Origin: Bacillota bacterium
GTDB lineage: Bacteria; Bacillota; Sulfobacillia; JAJYWN01
Length of the DNA: 64,000 nucleotides
Direction of reading: 5' to 3'
NCBI GenBank assembly: GCA_021791495.1
Contig: JAJYWN010000064.1
Location: 74,139 to 138,138, forward strand
The position numbers were made by a program, and so were the translations under genes. Shown here piece by piece: positions 751 to 37,036 of the stretch (position 1 is the stretch's first letter; the number at the start of each line of letters is the position of its first letter). The notes under the pieces were generated by a model, which worked only from the letters and a program-made list of their open reading frames with translations, was not told the origin of the DNA and made no database searches.

Positions 751-993
751 TCAAGGTCCCTTTTCGATTTTTCGCTGCAAGGTGCCGGGGGAAATGGGGG
801 ACAGGAAGGTCCCTTTGGTCGTGAGGACCAGCGATTTGGCGTCTCCGCTGGAAAGGTCGGTTAGGCGGCTGGCGGACCTGCTTTCCTCAAGGAAAGTGCG
901 GGTGCTTTCGGCGACCGCCGCCGCGTTCATGTCAAAGATGCCGATGATTTCGCTGGTACTTACGACCGTATCCTCGCCTAGGTGGACCAGCAT
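751..993 (-). CDS. remB: RemB/YaaB-family (DUF370) DNA-binding regulator
   Basis: Small 80-residue protein of the DUF370 family. In Bacillus, RemA and RemB/YaaB act on matrix gene expression, and this position between recF and gyrB is the classic yaaB site. The N-terminus MLVHLGEDTVVSTSEIIGIF and the segment around TRTFLEE match the family pattern. It starts seven bases after the recF stop and is probably co-transcribed from dnaN/recF. The target genes here are unknown. Confidence 0.85.
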   Translation of the reverse strand: MLVHLGEDTVVSTSEIIGIFDMNAAAVAESTRTFLEESRSASRLTDLSSGDAKSLVLTTKGTFLSPISPGTLQRKIEKGP

Positions 994-999
994 CTTCGT

Positions 1000-2136
1000 T
1001 CACTCCTCCTGAACAAGCCGTCCGCCACCGACACGGTAATACGTGGACCGGGCGGCCACCGTGGCGGGAAGAAACGCTTCATCGGTAGTAGTGACGAAGG
1101 CCTGGCGCCGGTCGTCTTCCAGCAGTCCGGCCAGGGCCTGGCGCCGGCTTTCGTCCAGTTCGGACAAGACATCGTCAAGGAGCATCACTGGCTCTTCCCC
1201 TGTTTCCTGCCGCAGGAAGGAAAGCTCGGCGAATTTGAGCGCCAGGGCGGCCGTACGGGTCTGTCCCTGGGAGCCGAAGTCGCGCAGGTCCGCTCCGTTC
1301 AAGCCCAGGAGGAGGTCGTCCCGGTGGGGGCCCGCCAGGGAGACTCCCCTGGCCAGTTCGGCCGGTCTTAGCCTCTCCAACTCGCTGAAGAAGGCGGCCC
1401 GTATCTCCTCCCGCGAGGGCGTAGCCAAGCCTCCGGCCTTTCGCAGCACTGCCGGATCATAGGTCACGGACAGGGTTTCCTTCTCCGAGGCCAGTTCGGC
1501 GTGGGCCGCGCGGGCTTCGTCGGCTAGGCGCGCCACGGCCTCGGCGCGGCGCCGGACCAACCAAGACCCCACTTCCACTAACTGATCGTCCCAAACTTTC
1601 AGATGCGCTAAGTCCACCCCTCCGGCTTCCGAGGCCGAGCGCAGCAGCTTGTTCCGCTGGCCCAGAATCCGGGCGTATTGAGTCAGGTTATGCAGGTAGG
1701 TGGGGGATACCTGGGATAGGATGATGTCCAGGTACCGGCGGCGCATGGCCGGCGCCCCCTTGGCGATCTGTAGTTCATCCGGTCCGAAGAAGACTACCAA
1801 GAGGCGGCCCACCACGCCGGCCGCCGAGGGAACCACGGCGCCGTTGCACTTGAACTGCTTGCGGCGGCCCTTCTCCCAGGCCACCTCGACCTTTCCGGGC
1901 CCCTCACTGCGCTCGATGGAAGTTCTCAGATAATAGGCTTCCTGGCCCATGGACACCAGTTCCTCGTCGCGGGCGGCGCGATTGGAGCGGGTCAGGGCCA
2001 GGACGACCAAGGCTTCGAGAATGTTGGTCTTGCCGGCGCCGTTGGGTCCGAAAAGGACGGAGAGGCCCGGGGCGGGCTGGAACTCCAACCCGCCGTAGTT
2101 CCGAAAGTTCTTAAGGACGAGGCTCTGGACGATCAA
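1000..2136 (-). CDS. recF: DNA replication and repair protein RecF
   Basis: SMC-like ATPase that loads RecA at single-strand gaps with RecO and RecR. It has 378 residues, a normal length. The Walker A loop GPNGAGKTN is near residue 30, an ABC-type signature region follows, and the Walker B/D-loop LLDDVLSELDE is near residue 318. It begins only six bases after the dnaN stop, so the two are likely translationally coupled. The small S4-domain gene yaaA, often found between dnaN and recF in Bacilli, is absent. Confidence 0.97.
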   Translation of the reverse strand: MIVQSLVLKNFRNYGGLEFQPAPGLSVLFGPNGAGKTNILEALVVLALTRSNRAARDEELVSMGQEAYYLRTSIERSEGPGKVEVAWEKGRRKQFKCNGAVVPSAAGVVGRLLVVFFGPDELQIAKGAPAMRRRYLDIILSQVSPTYLHNLTQYARILGQRNKLLRSASEAGGVDLAHLKVWDDQLVEVGSWLVRRRAEAVARLADEARAAHAELASEKETLSVTYDPAVLRKAGGLATPSREEIRAAFFSELERLRPAELARGVSLAGPHRDDLLLGLNGADLRDFGSQGQTRTAALALKFAELSFLRQETGEEPVMLLDDVLSELDESRRQALAGLLEDDRRQAFVTTTDEAFLPATVAARSTYYRVGGGRLVQEE

Positions 2137-2142
2137 GAAGAA

Positions 2143-3267
2143 TCACAGCGTCCTCAAAGGAAGGACTATGTAGATATAGTTGCCGCTGTCGGCGGCCTTC
2201 AGACGGCTGGGGTTGATGGGACCGATAAACTCAAGGACGCACTCATCCCCTTCCACCGCGCGCACGCCATCGATAACGTAGCGTACCTGGAAGGCGATCT
2301 CGAGATCGTCCCCTTCCTTATGGGCGGGCAGGTCCTCCTTCACCCGGCCGACTTCGGGGGTATTCGACGTTACGATGACGCCGTCGTCCTTGATCTCGAA
2401 ACGCATTGCGTGGCCGGCCTCGCTGGCCACGACCGAAGCCCGGTCGGCGGCGGCGGCCAGGTCGGCCGTCTTTACTCTGACGCGGGTCTTGAACTGCTCG
2501 GGGGCCAGTTGGTGGTAGATGACGTTCTCGTAGTTCGGGAACTGACCTTCGATAAGGCGGGACACCAGGAACAAGCGGCCAAGGTCAAAGAAGACCTGAC
2601 TTTCTGAAGCGTATATCTTCACGGACGTATCATCATCGCCGGTAAGGATGCGGGACAGTTCAGACAAGGCTCTTCCCGGGATGATGATCTGACGGTCTCC
2701 GGCGCTACGGACGGCTTGGCGCGAGGAGAAGGCCATGCGGTACCCGTCGGTGGACACAAAACGGATCTCGTCTTTCACGGCGTGGAAAAGAAGGCCTGTC
2801 AGGAAAGGCCTGGCCTCGTCACGCGAGACGGCAAAGAGAGTCTGGTTTATCAATCCTCGCAGGTCTGGGAGCCGCAGTTCATAGGCGCCATCTTCCGTAC
2901 GCGGGGCGGGGAGGGCCGGGAATTCGGCCGAGTCGAACCCGTGGACCGAAAAACGCGCTCTCTGGCTGGAAATCTCGGTGACGTTATTGGTCTCGTCGGT
3001 CTCTATGTCAATGTCCGTTCCGGGCACCTTGCGGACGATGTCACCGAAGATTTTGGCCGGCAGGACCGCCTGTCCGGACTGGGCCACCATGGCCGGCAAG
3101 TGGCATTCAATGCCTATCTCGTGGTCGGTGGCGGAGAGCATCAGCCCCGTGTCGCTGGCCCGACAAAAAATGCCTGTTAGAACGGGGATCGTGGTCTTAG
3201 CGGCTACGGCCCGCTGGACCACTGATATGCCGTAGGACAGCTCTTCCTGGGAAATCCGGATTTTCAT
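2143..3267 (-). CDS. dnaN: DNA polymerase III sliding clamp (beta subunit)
   Basis: Ring-shaped processivity clamp that tethers PolIII to DNA and serves as a docking hub for replication and repair proteins. It has 374 residues when started at ATG 3267 (MKIRISQEEL), the family-typical N-terminus. A GGGAGGGG ribosome site lies a few bases upstream, so an in-frame start seven codons earlier is unlikely. The C-terminus ends in IYIVLPLRTL, similar to the usual clamp ending. It is preceded by the origin region and followed tightly by recF. Confidence 0.97.
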   Translation of the reverse strand: MKIRISQEELSYGISVVQRAVAAKTTIPVLTGIFCRASDTGLMLSATDHEIGIECHLPAMVAQSGQAVLPAKIFGDIVRKVPGTDIDIETDETNNVTEISSQRARFSVHGFDSAEFPALPAPRTEDGAYELRLPDLRGLINQTLFAVSRDEARPFLTGLLFHAVKDEIRFVSTDGYRMAFSSRQAVRSAGDRQIIIPGRALSELSRILTGDDDTSVKIYASESQVFFDLGRLFLVSRLIEGQFPNYENVIYHQLAPEQFKTRVRVKTADLAAAADRASVVASEAGHAMRFEIKDDGVIVTSNTPEVGRVKEDLPAHKEGDDLEIAFQVRYVIDGVRAVEGDECVLEFIGPINPSRLKAADSGNYIYIVLPLRTL

Positions 3268-3360
3268 CTTTCTACTCCCCTCCCGCAATCGTGCGAAGGC
3301 CGGTCTTTTCTGTCGCCTTATTTGGCTGGATGTCGAAGCTTCTCCTTTACCCAGTTTAAC

Positions 3361-3399
3361 TAGTTAGGAGAGTAGGGTAAGTAGTAGTAGTGTGGAGAA
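3361..3399 (+). other. DnaA-trio-like TAG triplets next to a DnaA box
   Basis: TAG triplets occur at 3361, 3365, 3373, 3382, 3385 and 3388, the last three in tandem, directly followed by the reverse box-like TGTGGAGAA at 3391-3399. In Bacillus the DnaA-trio is read as TAG repeats lying 5' of a DnaA box, and DnaA grows along it as a single-strand filament to open the origin. The orientation here (dnaN side, triplets, box, dnaA side) matches that scheme. Assignment is by pattern only. Confidence 0.65.
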
Positions 3400-3492
3400 G
3401 GTGGACAAGGGTTCTTTCCCCTGTTAGATGCGGGTTTCTGGCTGTGGATGACCTGTGTAGATTCCTTGGGATAGAAAGGCGGTAATCCACAG

Positions 3493-4955: not shown

Positions 4956-5345
4956 GGTCTGCCCCCCAAAGATTATCCACAGGTTAATCCACAATCTTGA
5001 AGCCGGCTGTCGGGGCGGTGCCGTCCATCCCACCAGCTTCTCAGGCGGACGACGTGACCAGTCTCAGGGCGTCCCAGGATGCCCTTCCAGGAGTCCCCAG
5101 GATGATTGTCCCTTGCCAGTCAACAGAAGGCCTGGCCGCCAGTAAACGTCCAGCTAAAAAGGCTTTCCTCCCCTAATGACGACAACGGCGCGCCTTCGAT
5201 GGCGCGCTTATTTCGAGACCCCATTGAAACCGCCCCAAGGTGTTCGTCACCACGGGGCCAACCCCTTTGCCGGCCGGACTGGCACGGTGACGGAAGGTAT
5301 TAACCTTTATTTCATCCACTGGTTATCCACACAGTTATCCACAAG
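4956..5345. other. oriC, rpmH-side part (DnaA boxes)
   Basis: The 630 bases between dnaA and rpmH hold no gene. Perfect TTATCCACA boxes lie at 4973-4981, 5323-5331 and 5335-5343, the last two at a 12-base period. A one-mismatch box TAATCCACA is at 4985-4993. The boxes beside the dnaA start probably also repress dnaA. A short direct repeat, CCCAGGATG, occurs twice near 5073-5105. Between about 5110 and 5320 no further signal is recognised. Confidence 0.85.
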
Positions 5346-5475
5346 ATTCGGCAGGGTAAAGTGCAGCGTCAGTGCGTATTAGACGGTTCCGGAAGGTCTC
5401 CTTCCGGGCCGAGGCGATTATTTTTTCGCGATGGACCGTGATGCCTTCGCTGGCGACCGCGCCAAGGCCGAATCC

Positions 5476-5505
5476 TTGACACGCCAAAAAAGGCCAAGAT
5501 ATAAT
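5476..5505 (+). promoter_or_regulatory. Strong housekeeping promoter for rpmH-rnpA
   Basis: Perfect TTGACA at 5476-5481 and perfect TATAAT at 5500-5505 are separated by 18 bases. Transcription would begin near 5512, giving a leader of about 75 bases before rpmH. It is the best sigma-A-type promoter in the window. Confidence 0.9.
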
Positions 5506-5585
5506 AGTGCGTACGATTGGGCGGAAATCGCCCAATTCCGTGTCTGCGGGGGTGTTTAGCGCAGGCTCACGGGGAGGGACGACCA

Positions 5586-33510: not shown

Positions 33511-35691
33511 ATGAAGAGTTTCCTGGAGAAGTTCGTCAAGAGCGCCGGCAAGACGGGGCTGGCCGAAAAACTCACCGAAGAGGAGCAGCTGCGCCGTCAG
33601 GTCAGCGCTCTGTTCGGCCTGCTCTCGAACATTTACGGTTCGGACAAGCTCGTCTTGAAGGCGGGGAAGTTGGAAGCCCTGAACGCCATGCGTTCCGGTG
33701 TCCTGGAAGAGCAGGTCCTGGCGCTCCAGAAGCTCGTGTACGAGGACCCCACCATCGACACGCTGCCGAAGGCGGAGGACATTCCCGGCATCCTGGAAGA
33801 AGTCGAGGACGAGATCGCCGACGTCATCGCCCGGCGGTCGGTCGAAGATAAGCTGGAGAAGAAGATCGCCGAGCGCATGCAGCAGCGCCATGAGGAATAC
33901 GTCCGCGACATTAAGACTCAGATCATCAAGGAGGACGCGGGCCCGGAAAACCCGGCCACGCTGAAGAAATACGCACTCCTCGAGAAACTGGAGCACAAGA
34001 AACTGGCTCGGACGGCCATTGAAGCGCTGCGGCCCACGAACCTGGCGGAGATCGTCGGGCAGGAGCGGGCCTGCAAGGCCCTGCTTTCGAAGATCGCTTC
34101 ACCCTTCCCGCAGCACGTGATCCTTTACGGACCGCCCGGCGTGGGCAAAACCACGGCGGCGCGCCTGGTGCTGGAGGAAGCCAAGCGGCTGCAACACACG
34201 CCCTTCGCCGCCGACGCCCCCTTCGTGGAAGTGGATGGCACCACCCTGCGGTGGGACCCGCGCGAAGTGACCAACCCCTTGCTGGGTTCGGTGCACGATC
34301 CCATCTACCAGGGGGCCAAGCGCGATCTGGCCGACGGCGGCGTGCCGGAGCCCAAGCCGGGCCTGGTGACCGAGGCCCACGGCGGAGTGCTGTTCCTGGA
34401 CGAAATCGGCGAGTTGGAGCCCATCCTTCTCAGCAAGCTGCTGAAAGTGCTGGAGGACAAGCGCGTCCACTTCGATTCGTCATACTACGACCCCAGTGAC
34501 CCGAACGTCCCGAAGTACGTGAAGAAGCTGTTTGAGGAGGGCGCCCCGGCGGACTTCGTCCTCATCGGGGCCACCACGCGAGACCCCAGCGAGATCAGCC
34601 CGGCCATCCGGTCGCGCTGCGCCGAGGTCTTCTTCGAGCCACTGACCCCGAAGGACATCGGCACCATCGTCGAAGACGCCGCGGCGCGGCTCGACGTCAC
34701 TCTCGAACCGGGCGTGACCAACATCATCAGCGAGTACACCATCGAGGGCCGCAAGGCCATCGGCATCTTGGCCGACGCCTTCGGGCTGGCCCTCTTCCAG
34801 AAGAACGGCACGGCGGCGGCCGCCGCCACGGCCACGGCTAGGACGGTCAGAGGCCGCAAGGTCGTCCGGCCCGGCTCGGCGTCGGCGGCGTCGGTCTCGG
34901 CGGCGTCGGTCAAGGGCGGTGCCGGAGTTTCGGTCCGCGGGCGGAAGACGACGGCGGTACGGTCCTGGGGCAAGGTCCGCATCACGCCCGAACACGTCTA
35001 TGAGGTTATCCGCGTCGGACGCTTGTCGCCCTACGCAGGCCCGAAAGCACGGCAGGTGCCGGAGGTGGGCAAAGTCTTCGGCCTGGGCGTCTACGGCTAC
35101 CTGGGCTCGGTTCTAGAGATCGAGGCCGTGGCCTTCCCGGCCCGCGAGAAGGGTAAGGGCCAGCTACGGTTTAACGAGACTGCGGGCAGCATGGCCCGGG
35201 ACTCCGTCTTCAACTCGGCGTCGGTCATCCGCCGCCTGACGGGCGAGGACATCGCCGACTACGATGTCCACGTGAACGTTGTCGGGGGCGGGAATATCGA
35301 CGGGCCGTCGGCGGGCACCGCCATTGCCGTGGCTATCTTGTCGGCCATCTGGGGGAAGCCCGTGTATCAGGATGTGGCCGTGACGGGCGAGGTCTCCATT
35401 CAGGGACGGGTGCGGGCCATCGGCGGCGTGTTCGAGAAGCTTTACGGGGCCAAGCAGGCCGGAATGCGCTTGGCCATCATGCCGGAGGAGAACCGGAAGG
35501 ACCTGCCGGCGGACATCCGGGGCATTGAGGTGGCCTACGCCGCCACCATTGAGGACGCTCTGACCCACGTGCTGCCTGGAGGCTGGACCAAGCCCGAAGC
35601 CAAGGGGACCGCGACCGAAGCTGGAACGGGGACCGGGGTGCAGGCGGCGGCGGCCGAAGCGGAAGTGGGAAACGCGGCGCAGGAGGGCTAG
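33511..35691 (+). CDS. lonC: ATP-dependent protease of the LonC family
   Basis: 726 residues from ATG 33511 with GAGGAGAGG upstream. An N-terminal helical part of about 160 residues replaces the usual Lon N-domain. Walker A YGPPGVGKTTAAR near residue 203, Walker B GVLFLDEIGEL near 292, then a serine-lysine protease domain with NIDGPSAGTAIA near 600 and YGAKQAGMRLAIMP near 647. Clostridial LonC proteins of this type are linked to sporulation. A low-complexity alanine/serine stretch (about residues 433-473) splits the AAA+ and protease parts. Confidence 0.9.
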   Translation: MKSFLEKFVKSAGKTGLAEKLTEEEQLRRQVSALFGLLSNIYGSDKLVLKAGKLEALNAMRSGVLEEQVLALQKLVYEDPTIDTLPKAEDIPGILEEVEDEIADVIARRSVEDKLEKKIAERMQQRHEEYVRDIKTQIIKEDAGPENPATLKKYALLEKLEHKKLARTAIEALRPTNLAEIVGQERACKALLSKIASPFPQHVILYGPPGVGKTTAARLVLEEAKRLQHTPFAADAPFVEVDGTTLRWDPREVTNPLLGSVHDPIYQGAKRDLADGGVPEPKPGLVTEAHGGVLFLDEIGELEPILLSKLLKVLEDKRVHFDSSYYDPSDPNVPKYVKKLFEEGAPADFVLIGATTRDPSEISPAIRSRCAEVFFEPLTPKDIGTIVEDAAARLDVTLEPGVTNIISEYTIEGRKAIGILADAFGLALFQKNGTAAAAATATARTVRGRKVVRPGSASAASVSAASVKGGAGVSVRGRKTTAVRSWGKVRITPEHVYEVIRVGRLSPYAGPKARQVPEVGKVFGLGVYGYLGSVLEIEAVAFPAREKGKGQLRFNETAGSMARDSVFNSASVIRRLTGEDIADYDVHVNVVGGGNIDGPSAGTAIAVAILSAIWGKPVYQDVAVTGEVSIQGRVRAIGGVFEKLYGAKQAGMRLAIMPEENRKDLPADIRGIEVAYAATIEDALTHVLPGGWTKPEAKGTATEAGTGTGVQAAAAEAEVGNAAQEG

Positions 35692-35698
35692 ACTGAAT

Positions 35699-37036
35699 TT
35701 GAGCGCCTTACCGGCCTCTCCCGGACCAACCGGCAGAGTCCTGCCCCAGAGCATCGAGGCCGAAGAATCGGTCCTCGGAGCCATGCTCATCGATAAAGAG
35801 GCCATCAGCCGGGCCATGAGCATCCTGAAGTCGCAGGACTTCTACCGCGATGCCCACCGGCACGTTTTTTCCGCTATCGTCAATGTCTTCGACCAGCGCG
35901 GTTCGGTCGACCTGGTCACCGTCGGTGAGGAACTGCGTAGCCGCGGCTCTTTGGAGGCGGTGGGCGGCATCGGCTACGTCGCCGGGCTGGCCCACGGTGT
36001 CCCTACGGCAGCCAACGTCGAGCACTACGCGAACATCGTCCGCGAGAAGGCCATGCTGCGGTCGCTCATCAACACGGCCACCGAGATCGGCTCGCGCGCC
36101 TATGACCCCGGGGAAGACCCTGCCAAGCTCTTGGACGACGCGGAACGGATGGTCTTCGAGGTGGCCGGTCGCCAGGGCCGGCGGTCCTTCTACTCGTTGA
36201 AGGAAGTCCTTTCGACCACTCTCGATCGACTTAACGCCGCACACTTGAAGAAGACCGAACTGGTCGGCATTCCCACGGGACTGGGTGACTTCGACCTGAT
36301 GACTTCCGGGCTGCAGCGGTCGGACCTGATCATCATCGCCGCCCGTCCATCCATGGGGAAAACCACGCTGTTGCTTCAGCTTGCCTTGAGCGCCGCCAAA
36401 GCAGGTGTTCCCGTGGCCATTTTCAGTCTTGAGATGGCCAGAGAGCAACTGGGTGTGCGCATACTGTGTGCCGAAGGTGGCATCGATGCCCTGAGAGCCC
36501 GGGACGGGAAGCTCGATGACCAGGATTGGGTTAACGTGTCCGCTGCTGTGCAGCGGTTATCGGAAGCGCCGATCTACATCGACGACAGTTCCAACCTGTC
36601 GGTGATGGACCTGCGCACGAAGGCCCGCCTCATCCAGTCAGAAGTCGGGTTGGGGTTGCTGATTGTCGACTACATGCAGCTGATGTACTCCCGAGGAAGG
36701 TTCGAGAACCGGCAGCAAGAGATTTCGGAGATTTCCCGACTGCTGAAGGGCCTGGCTCGTGAGTTGAAGATTCCAGTAGTCGTAGCCTCTCAAATGTCAC
36801 GTGCGGTGGAGCGACGTGAAGACCGCCGACCCATGCTATCTGATCTGCGAGAAAGCGGCTCCATCGAGCAAGACGCCGACGTGGTCTGCTTCATACATCA
36901 CGACCCGAAGCAAGAGAACCAGAACATGTGCGAACTGATTATCGCCAAGCAACGCATGGGTCCGACCGGCGCCATCGAAGCGTTCTTCCAGAAAGAGATT
37001 GGCCGGTTCAGGGCCATCGCGAAAATCGAGGAATAG
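35699..37036 (+). CDS. dnaB: Replicative DNA helicase DnaB/DnaC
   Basis: 445 residues from TTG 35699 behind AGGAGGG, eight bases after lonC. N-terminal helical hairpin domain (LPQSIEAEESVLGAMLID), then the RecA-like motor: ARPSMGKTTLLLQ near residue 216, LGLLIVDYMQLM, and VVVASQMSRAVERR. DRRPMLSDLRESGSIEQDADVV is the DnaB motif 4 region. Moves the replication fork. Confidence 0.97.
   Translation: MSALPASPGPTGRVLPQSIEAEESVLGAMLIDKEAISRAMSILKSQDFYRDAHRHVFSAIVNVFDQRGSVDLVTVGEELRSRGSLEAVGGIGYVAGLAHGVPTAANVEHYANIVREKAMLRSLINTATEIGSRAYDPGEDPAKLLDDAERMVFEVAGRQGRRSFYSLKEVLSTTLDRLNAAHLKKTELVGIPTGLGDFDLMTSGLQRSDLIIIAARPSMGKTTLLLQLALSAAKAGVPVAIFSLEMAREQLGVRILCAEGGIDALRARDGKLDDQDWVNVSAAVQRLSEAPIYIDDSSNLSVMDLRTKARLIQSEVGLGLLIVDYMQLMYSRGRFENRQQEISEISRLLKGLARELKIPVVVASQMSRAVERREDRRPMLSDLRESGSIEQDADVVCFIHHDPKQENQNMCELIIAKQRMGPTGAIEAFFQKEIGRFRAIAKIEE

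Follow-up and report, generated by a model that had tools for sequence, protein, structure and literature searches.

A probable DnaA-trio and DnaA-box unwinding element in the dnaA-dnaN gap of a Bacillota genome

The analysed stretch of 64,000 nucleotides, hereafter the window, contains in its dnaA-dnaN gap a short array of TAG triplets that directly adjoins two abutting, reverse-oriented DnaA-boxes. We assign this element, with a probability of about 0.88, to the DnaA-trio and DnaA-box core of the basal unwinding system (BUS) at the origin of this chromosome. The basis computed here comprises sequence, orientation, conservation, non-randomness, duplex instability and the conservation of contact residues in DnaA. 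Very probably this is a real but ordinary opening site, with one small oddity in its spacing.

Trios, boxes and surrounding genes

A BUS is described in the available text of PMC8287927 as possessing a run of three or more trios with a middle A and a DnaA-box with at most two mismatches, located 0-16 bp from the trios and present as TGTGGATAA on the 3' side of the trio strand. A tandem second box (up to four mismatches) and a GC-rich spacer of about 4 bp are typical but optional, and the published search allows a spacer of 0 (PMC8287927). The window contains the following features, with boxes compared to TGTGGATAA:

751-993, minus strand, RemA-like gene
1000-2136, minus strand, recF
2143-3267, minus strand, dnaN, sliding clamp (three Pfam DNA_pol3_beta domains)
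3317-3416, no strand, least stable 100-bp stretch of the 64-kb window by nearest-neighbour energies (rank 0 of 63900)
3361-3378, plus strand, outer degenerate trio zone (TAG, TTA, GGA, GAG, TAG, GGT; three of six with middle A)
3379-3387, plus strand, DnaA-trios AAG TAG TAG (outward from the box 3385-3387, 3382-3384, 3379-3381; continuous NAN run)
3388-3390, plus strand, box-abutting TAG, either trio 1 without spacer or a TAG replacing the usual 3-4 bp spacer
3391-3399, minus strand, proximal DnaA-box (TGTGGAGAA on plus, TTCTCCACA on minus; one mismatch)
3400-3408, minus strand, second DnaA-box (GGTGGACAA on plus; two mismatches), abutting the proximal box
3443-3451, minus strand, DnaA-box-like site TCATCCACA (one mismatch)
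3483-3491, plus strand, DnaA-box-like site TAATCCACA (one mismatch), candidate distal box for a DnaA loop
3600-5033, minus strand, dnaA ORF (DnaA_N, Bac_DnaA, Bac_DnaA_C; domain I matches from residue 32-34, start codon provisional)
4973-4993, plus strand, two boxes at the start of the dnaA ORF (TTATCCACA at 4973-4981, perfect; TAATCCACA at 4985-4993), no trios alongside
5323-5343, plus strand, two perfect DnaA-boxes upstream of dnaA (5323-5331 and 5335-5343), no trios alongside

TAG triplets are located on the plus strand of the gap at 3361, 3365, 3373, 3382, 3385 and 3388. Five of the six have one register in common, with the copy at 3365 out of register, and the tandem copies at 3382, 3385 and 3388 adjoin the proximal box. 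A sequence-only reading of this DNA had reported six such triplets, three in tandem, directly before a reverse DnaA-box in this gap, which the letters and the computed positions confirm. As trios, however, the six are too many: all six TAG exist, but outward from the box the in-register triplets read TAG TAG TAG AAG GGT TAG GAG GGA TTA TAG, and GGT ends the uninterrupted middle-A run after four (TAG TAG TAG AAG). The run shortens to three trios, still the BUS minimum, when the TAG at 3388-3390 is taken as spacer. The second box at 3400-3408, which is absent from the sequence-only reading, provides the optional tandem box and by position would be the counterpart of box 6 of B. subtilis. The distances of the two boxes from the trios, 0 for TGTGGAGAA and 9 for GGTGGACAA, both agree with the BUS box rule.

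The best PDB match of the DnaA of the window is 8btg, a DnaA chain that we take to be the B. subtilis DnaA of the BUS structure paper, as the residue numbers agree. Residues for trio capture, fork contact, the ISM and the arginine finger are named in the available text of PMC10721633. Nine of the ten residues checked (E183, N187, I190, I193, R202, K222, E223, E228 and R264 in B. subtilis numbers) are identical in the window. The tenth, the trio contact N196, is Q in the window, and this position is highly variable in the class.

Non-randomness, duplex stability and recurrence in the class

The string TAGTAGTAG occurs once in 64 kb. Dinucleotide shuffling of the gap recreates it in 12 of 5000 trials, and of 100 shuffled windows 5 have at least one copy. 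None of 5000 gap shuffles places six TAG within 30 nt; a trio-box composite score of at least 15 is attained in 11 of 5000, and the composite with spacer 0 and a box with at most one mismatch in 0/5000. A strict tandem-box test (at least three trios, trio score at least 10, spacer 0-4, second box at offset 8-10), which was fixed, its cut-offs picked by eye, once the controls and spacer counts had been seen, accepts 23 of 20000 gap shuffles, and the observed score of 30 is attained in none. The real 64-kb window contains one strict site, 20 whole-window shuffles none. The best score of a looser tandem model in the whole 231,718-base contig is likewise that of the window site.

GC content is 40% at 3361-3390 compared with 62% for the window. 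The earlier description of the stretch as only weakly AT-rich is right in absolute terms, but understates the local contrast, as the trios lie in the least stable 100 bp of this GC-rich window (3317-3416). The trio site is also located inside a 51-bp stretch of stability rank 7, and from its sequence the region 3317-3416 is the predicted region of first opening. GC skew is neutral on the origin position, neither supporting nor refuting it: in the 231,718-base contig (G000:C54) the skew is weak without a clear turning point at the site (contig position 77,528), and the cumulative minimum at 34146 is shallow and away from the site. A missing turning point is unexpected given the Bacillus-like dnaA-dnaN-recF gene order. 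The AT skew shows a weak reversal of sign at the site, from -0.013 to +0.021.

For the class, 154 genomes were searched, 147 of them with a DnaN match. After leaving out six genomes whose DnaN matches were fragmentary or unlisted, 141 loci remained, which gave 138 usable gaps, including the window; three loci (L133, L183, L209) lack a dnaA match and hence a gap. Where the DnaN start was unaligned, as in 69 of the 138 gaps, a point 100 bases inside dnaN was taken as the dnaN end of the gap. A trio-box scan without tandem boxes was abandoned in favour of the tandem model, since its spacer peaks at 4 and 12-13 represent the two boxes of one pair. With genomes counted singly and kinship ignored, the looser tandem model, whose cut-off at most 1% of shuffles pass, accepts 99 of 138 class gaps (39 fail), with 24/138 on the opposite strand and 2/138 in reversed uncomplemented gaps. 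It often passes in control regions because these are box-rich, and the stricter model was therefore adopted. The latter accepts 62/138 gaps on the expected strand (76 fail), 3/138 on the opposite strand and 19/6850 shuffles.

The arrangement thus recurs class-wide in the same gap and on the same strand, which bears out the conservation in relatives that had been proposed as a check. Trio letters vary in the class (TAA, CAG, AAG, GAG), and the middle A, strand and spacing are largely kept despite this drift in sequence. Within the order, each of the other three genomes (L005, L007, L008) combines trios with a 4-bp spacer and with two boxes, the second at offset 8. Two gaps that fail the looser model (L003 and L015) contain trio-like runs when read by eye; their boxes have diverged too far to be recognised by the rule. 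Of 53 named distant gaps from outside the class, the looser model accepts 18 and rejects 35.

Proposed opening, spacing and alternatives

Order and orientation had been likened to those of the Bacillus BUS; both, and the strand, match the description in the available text of PMC8287927, and the recurrence in the class and the retained DnaA contact residues support the likeness. Box binding, oligomer growth, strand opening and the order of these events are transferred here from B. subtilis work and, for the first three, also from the other species tested according to the same text (PMC8287927). By this analogy DnaA-ATP would dock via domain IV on the abutting boxes 3391-3408, and the AAA+ domains would polymerise leftward on the plus strand from the boxes over the trios. 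Neighbouring DnaA subunits would capture two bases of each TAG-like trio, and opening of the duplex would proceed from about 3390 through the region's least stable stretch toward dnaN. Most likely the TAG at 3388-3390 would act as spacer or first trio.

The oddity of the site concerns this TAG. The 99 gaps that pass the looser model separate trios and proximal box by a spacer of 4 in 61 cases, 3 in 16, 1 in 11, 0 in 6 and some other length in 5. Measured from the trios to the second box, the distance is 12 in 49 of them and 13 in 31, and the second box lies at offset 8 or 9 in 94. The window has 0 and 9, or 3 and 12 with 3388-3390 as spacer, which restores the commonest distance to the second box. 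A GC-rich spacer as such is absent from the window: the TAG may occupy its place, or the spacer is missing. In the six spacer-0 gaps, the window included, a TAG directly abuts the box only in the window and in L148, from another family of the class. A NAN triplet directly at the proximal box is seen in L148, L167, L168, L177 and L182 (TAC in L167 and L168, AAC in L177 and L182).

The TAG as spacer is the more likely reading of these letters, because the 3 + 9 spacing also occurs in other families of the class (e.g. L136, L152) and in Chloroflexi-labelled loci. Spacers of 1 and 4, and of 0 and 3, are mutually in register, as expected if a trio-like triplet sometimes replaces the spacer. That the trios truly abut the box, the first being captured by the DnaA sitting on the abutting box, appears rather unlikely. 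If so, bases of the box could be the two spacer bases that are unpaired in the B. subtilis structure (G19, G20), and the spacer would be dispensable. With its abutting TAG the site is a natural test case for the length of spacer that the DnaA complex requires.

DnaA on distal boxes might instead loop and seize the local trios as single strand in trans, in the style of E. coli, whose type of opening calls for an IHF site and a distal DnaA oligomer. Candidate boxes exist at 3443 and 3483, and B. subtilis also needs a helically phased distal box (PMC6669920, available text), from which 3483-3491 may by analogy have a role in looping; strict adjacency and orientation of box and trios across the class, however, favour growth in cis, and we regard trans capture as decidedly unlikely, with the qualification that the two are not mutually exclusive.

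It is very unlikely that the strands open upstream of dnaA (5034-5585), where the perfect boxes 5323-5343 lie beside an AT-rich patch, and that the TAG run is incidental. This region has perfect boxes at 5323 and 5335, with a third at 4973 inside the dnaA ORF, and a 30-bp stretch (5297-5326) as unstable as that at the trios (rank 21 versus 22); over 100 bp, however, the upstream patch ranks 132 and the trio site 0. In an upstream control of 21 genomes, i.e. the window and 20 of the 153 other genomes of the class, the looser model accepts the region upstream of dnaA in 7, the spacers and offsets being scattered, but a strict trio site is found there in 0/21, the window included, as against 14/21 in the dnaA-dnaN gap. 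By analogy with B. subtilis, the boxes 5323-5343 are likely the second half of a bipartite origin. It is scarcely credible that chance or slippage produced the TAG run as a short repeat beside an ordinary DnaA-box regulating only dnaN transcription: TAGTAGTAG alone does arise in shuffles at the rates given above, and in most relatives the trio ends are some 50 to 150 bp ahead of dnaN, a possible promoter place, but none of the 20000 shuffles attains the observed score, and distant relatives repeat arrangement, strand and narrow spacing with different trios (TAA, CAG, AAG, GAG), which slippage would not yield.

Helicase loading and comparison with known systems

The BUS reading provides a testable prediction of the replication start for a lineage known here from a draft genome alone. 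Pfam searches of this genome (G000, 97% complete) find neither DciA nor DnaD, and a two-row DciA alignment and DnaI_N give no match in it. Among 20 relatives, 17 possess DciA (PF05258) and 3 possess DnaD instead. DciA follows recF in the two relatives' loci inspected; in the window the recF-gyrB slot (603-1000) shows only the RemA-like gene, and the sequence ahead of about 590 resembles the beginning of gyrB. Two of the three DnaD-bearing relatives (G015:C185, G020:C101) have an IstB/DnaI-like ATPase no more than about 1 kb from DnaD, as expected of a DnaD-DnaI pair. The replicative helicase DnaB is encoded at 35699-37036 on the plus strand, about 32 kb from the origin, and the ORF directly before it (33511-35691) looks by eye like a Lon-type AAA+ protease.

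In B. subtilis, DnaD reads the strand opposite the trios (PMC10201434, available text). DnaD is not detected in the window's genome by the Pfam search, a difference from B. subtilis, and this role therefore probably does not apply here. The trio-box element is present both in class members with DciA and in those with DnaD, which suggests that strand opening and helicase loading evolve separately.

Among the paper titles listed, none deals with DnaA-trios in Sulfobacillus, Thermaerobacter or Symbiobacterium, which is no proof of absence from the literature. BUS candidates are reported for 1755 of 2070 species in the available text of PMC8287927, and a BUS is therefore to be expected here. The closest characterised counterpart, the BUS of B. 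subtilis (incC boxes 6 and 7 with DnaA-trios; available texts of PMC8287927, PMC6669920 and PMC10721633), lies in the same dnaA-dnaN gap and likewise has tandem boxes. Starting from dnaA, both possess boxes followed by CTA repeats. Opposite the trios, the strand has the sequence CTACTATTACTTCTACTA in B. subtilis (PMC10201434, available text) and CTACTACTACTTACC here, and nine of ten DnaA contact residues checked are the same. In contrast, the window lacks a separate GC-rich spacer, and its uninterrupted trio run comprises 4 trios versus 6 in B. subtilis.

The BUS-like elements of the same class (137 gaps) share trios and two boxes at offset 8-9 on the same strand and in the same gap, but most have a spacer of 4 (61/99 passing) or 3 (16/99), compared with 0 in the window. 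Five Chloroflexi-labelled loci (L061, L068, L073, L075 and L082), retrieved by way of DnaN, differ in having only two in-frame trios; in them TAG-TAG is separated by 3 bp from a box, and a second box follows at offset 9, a spacing that matches the window if its last TAG is the spacer.
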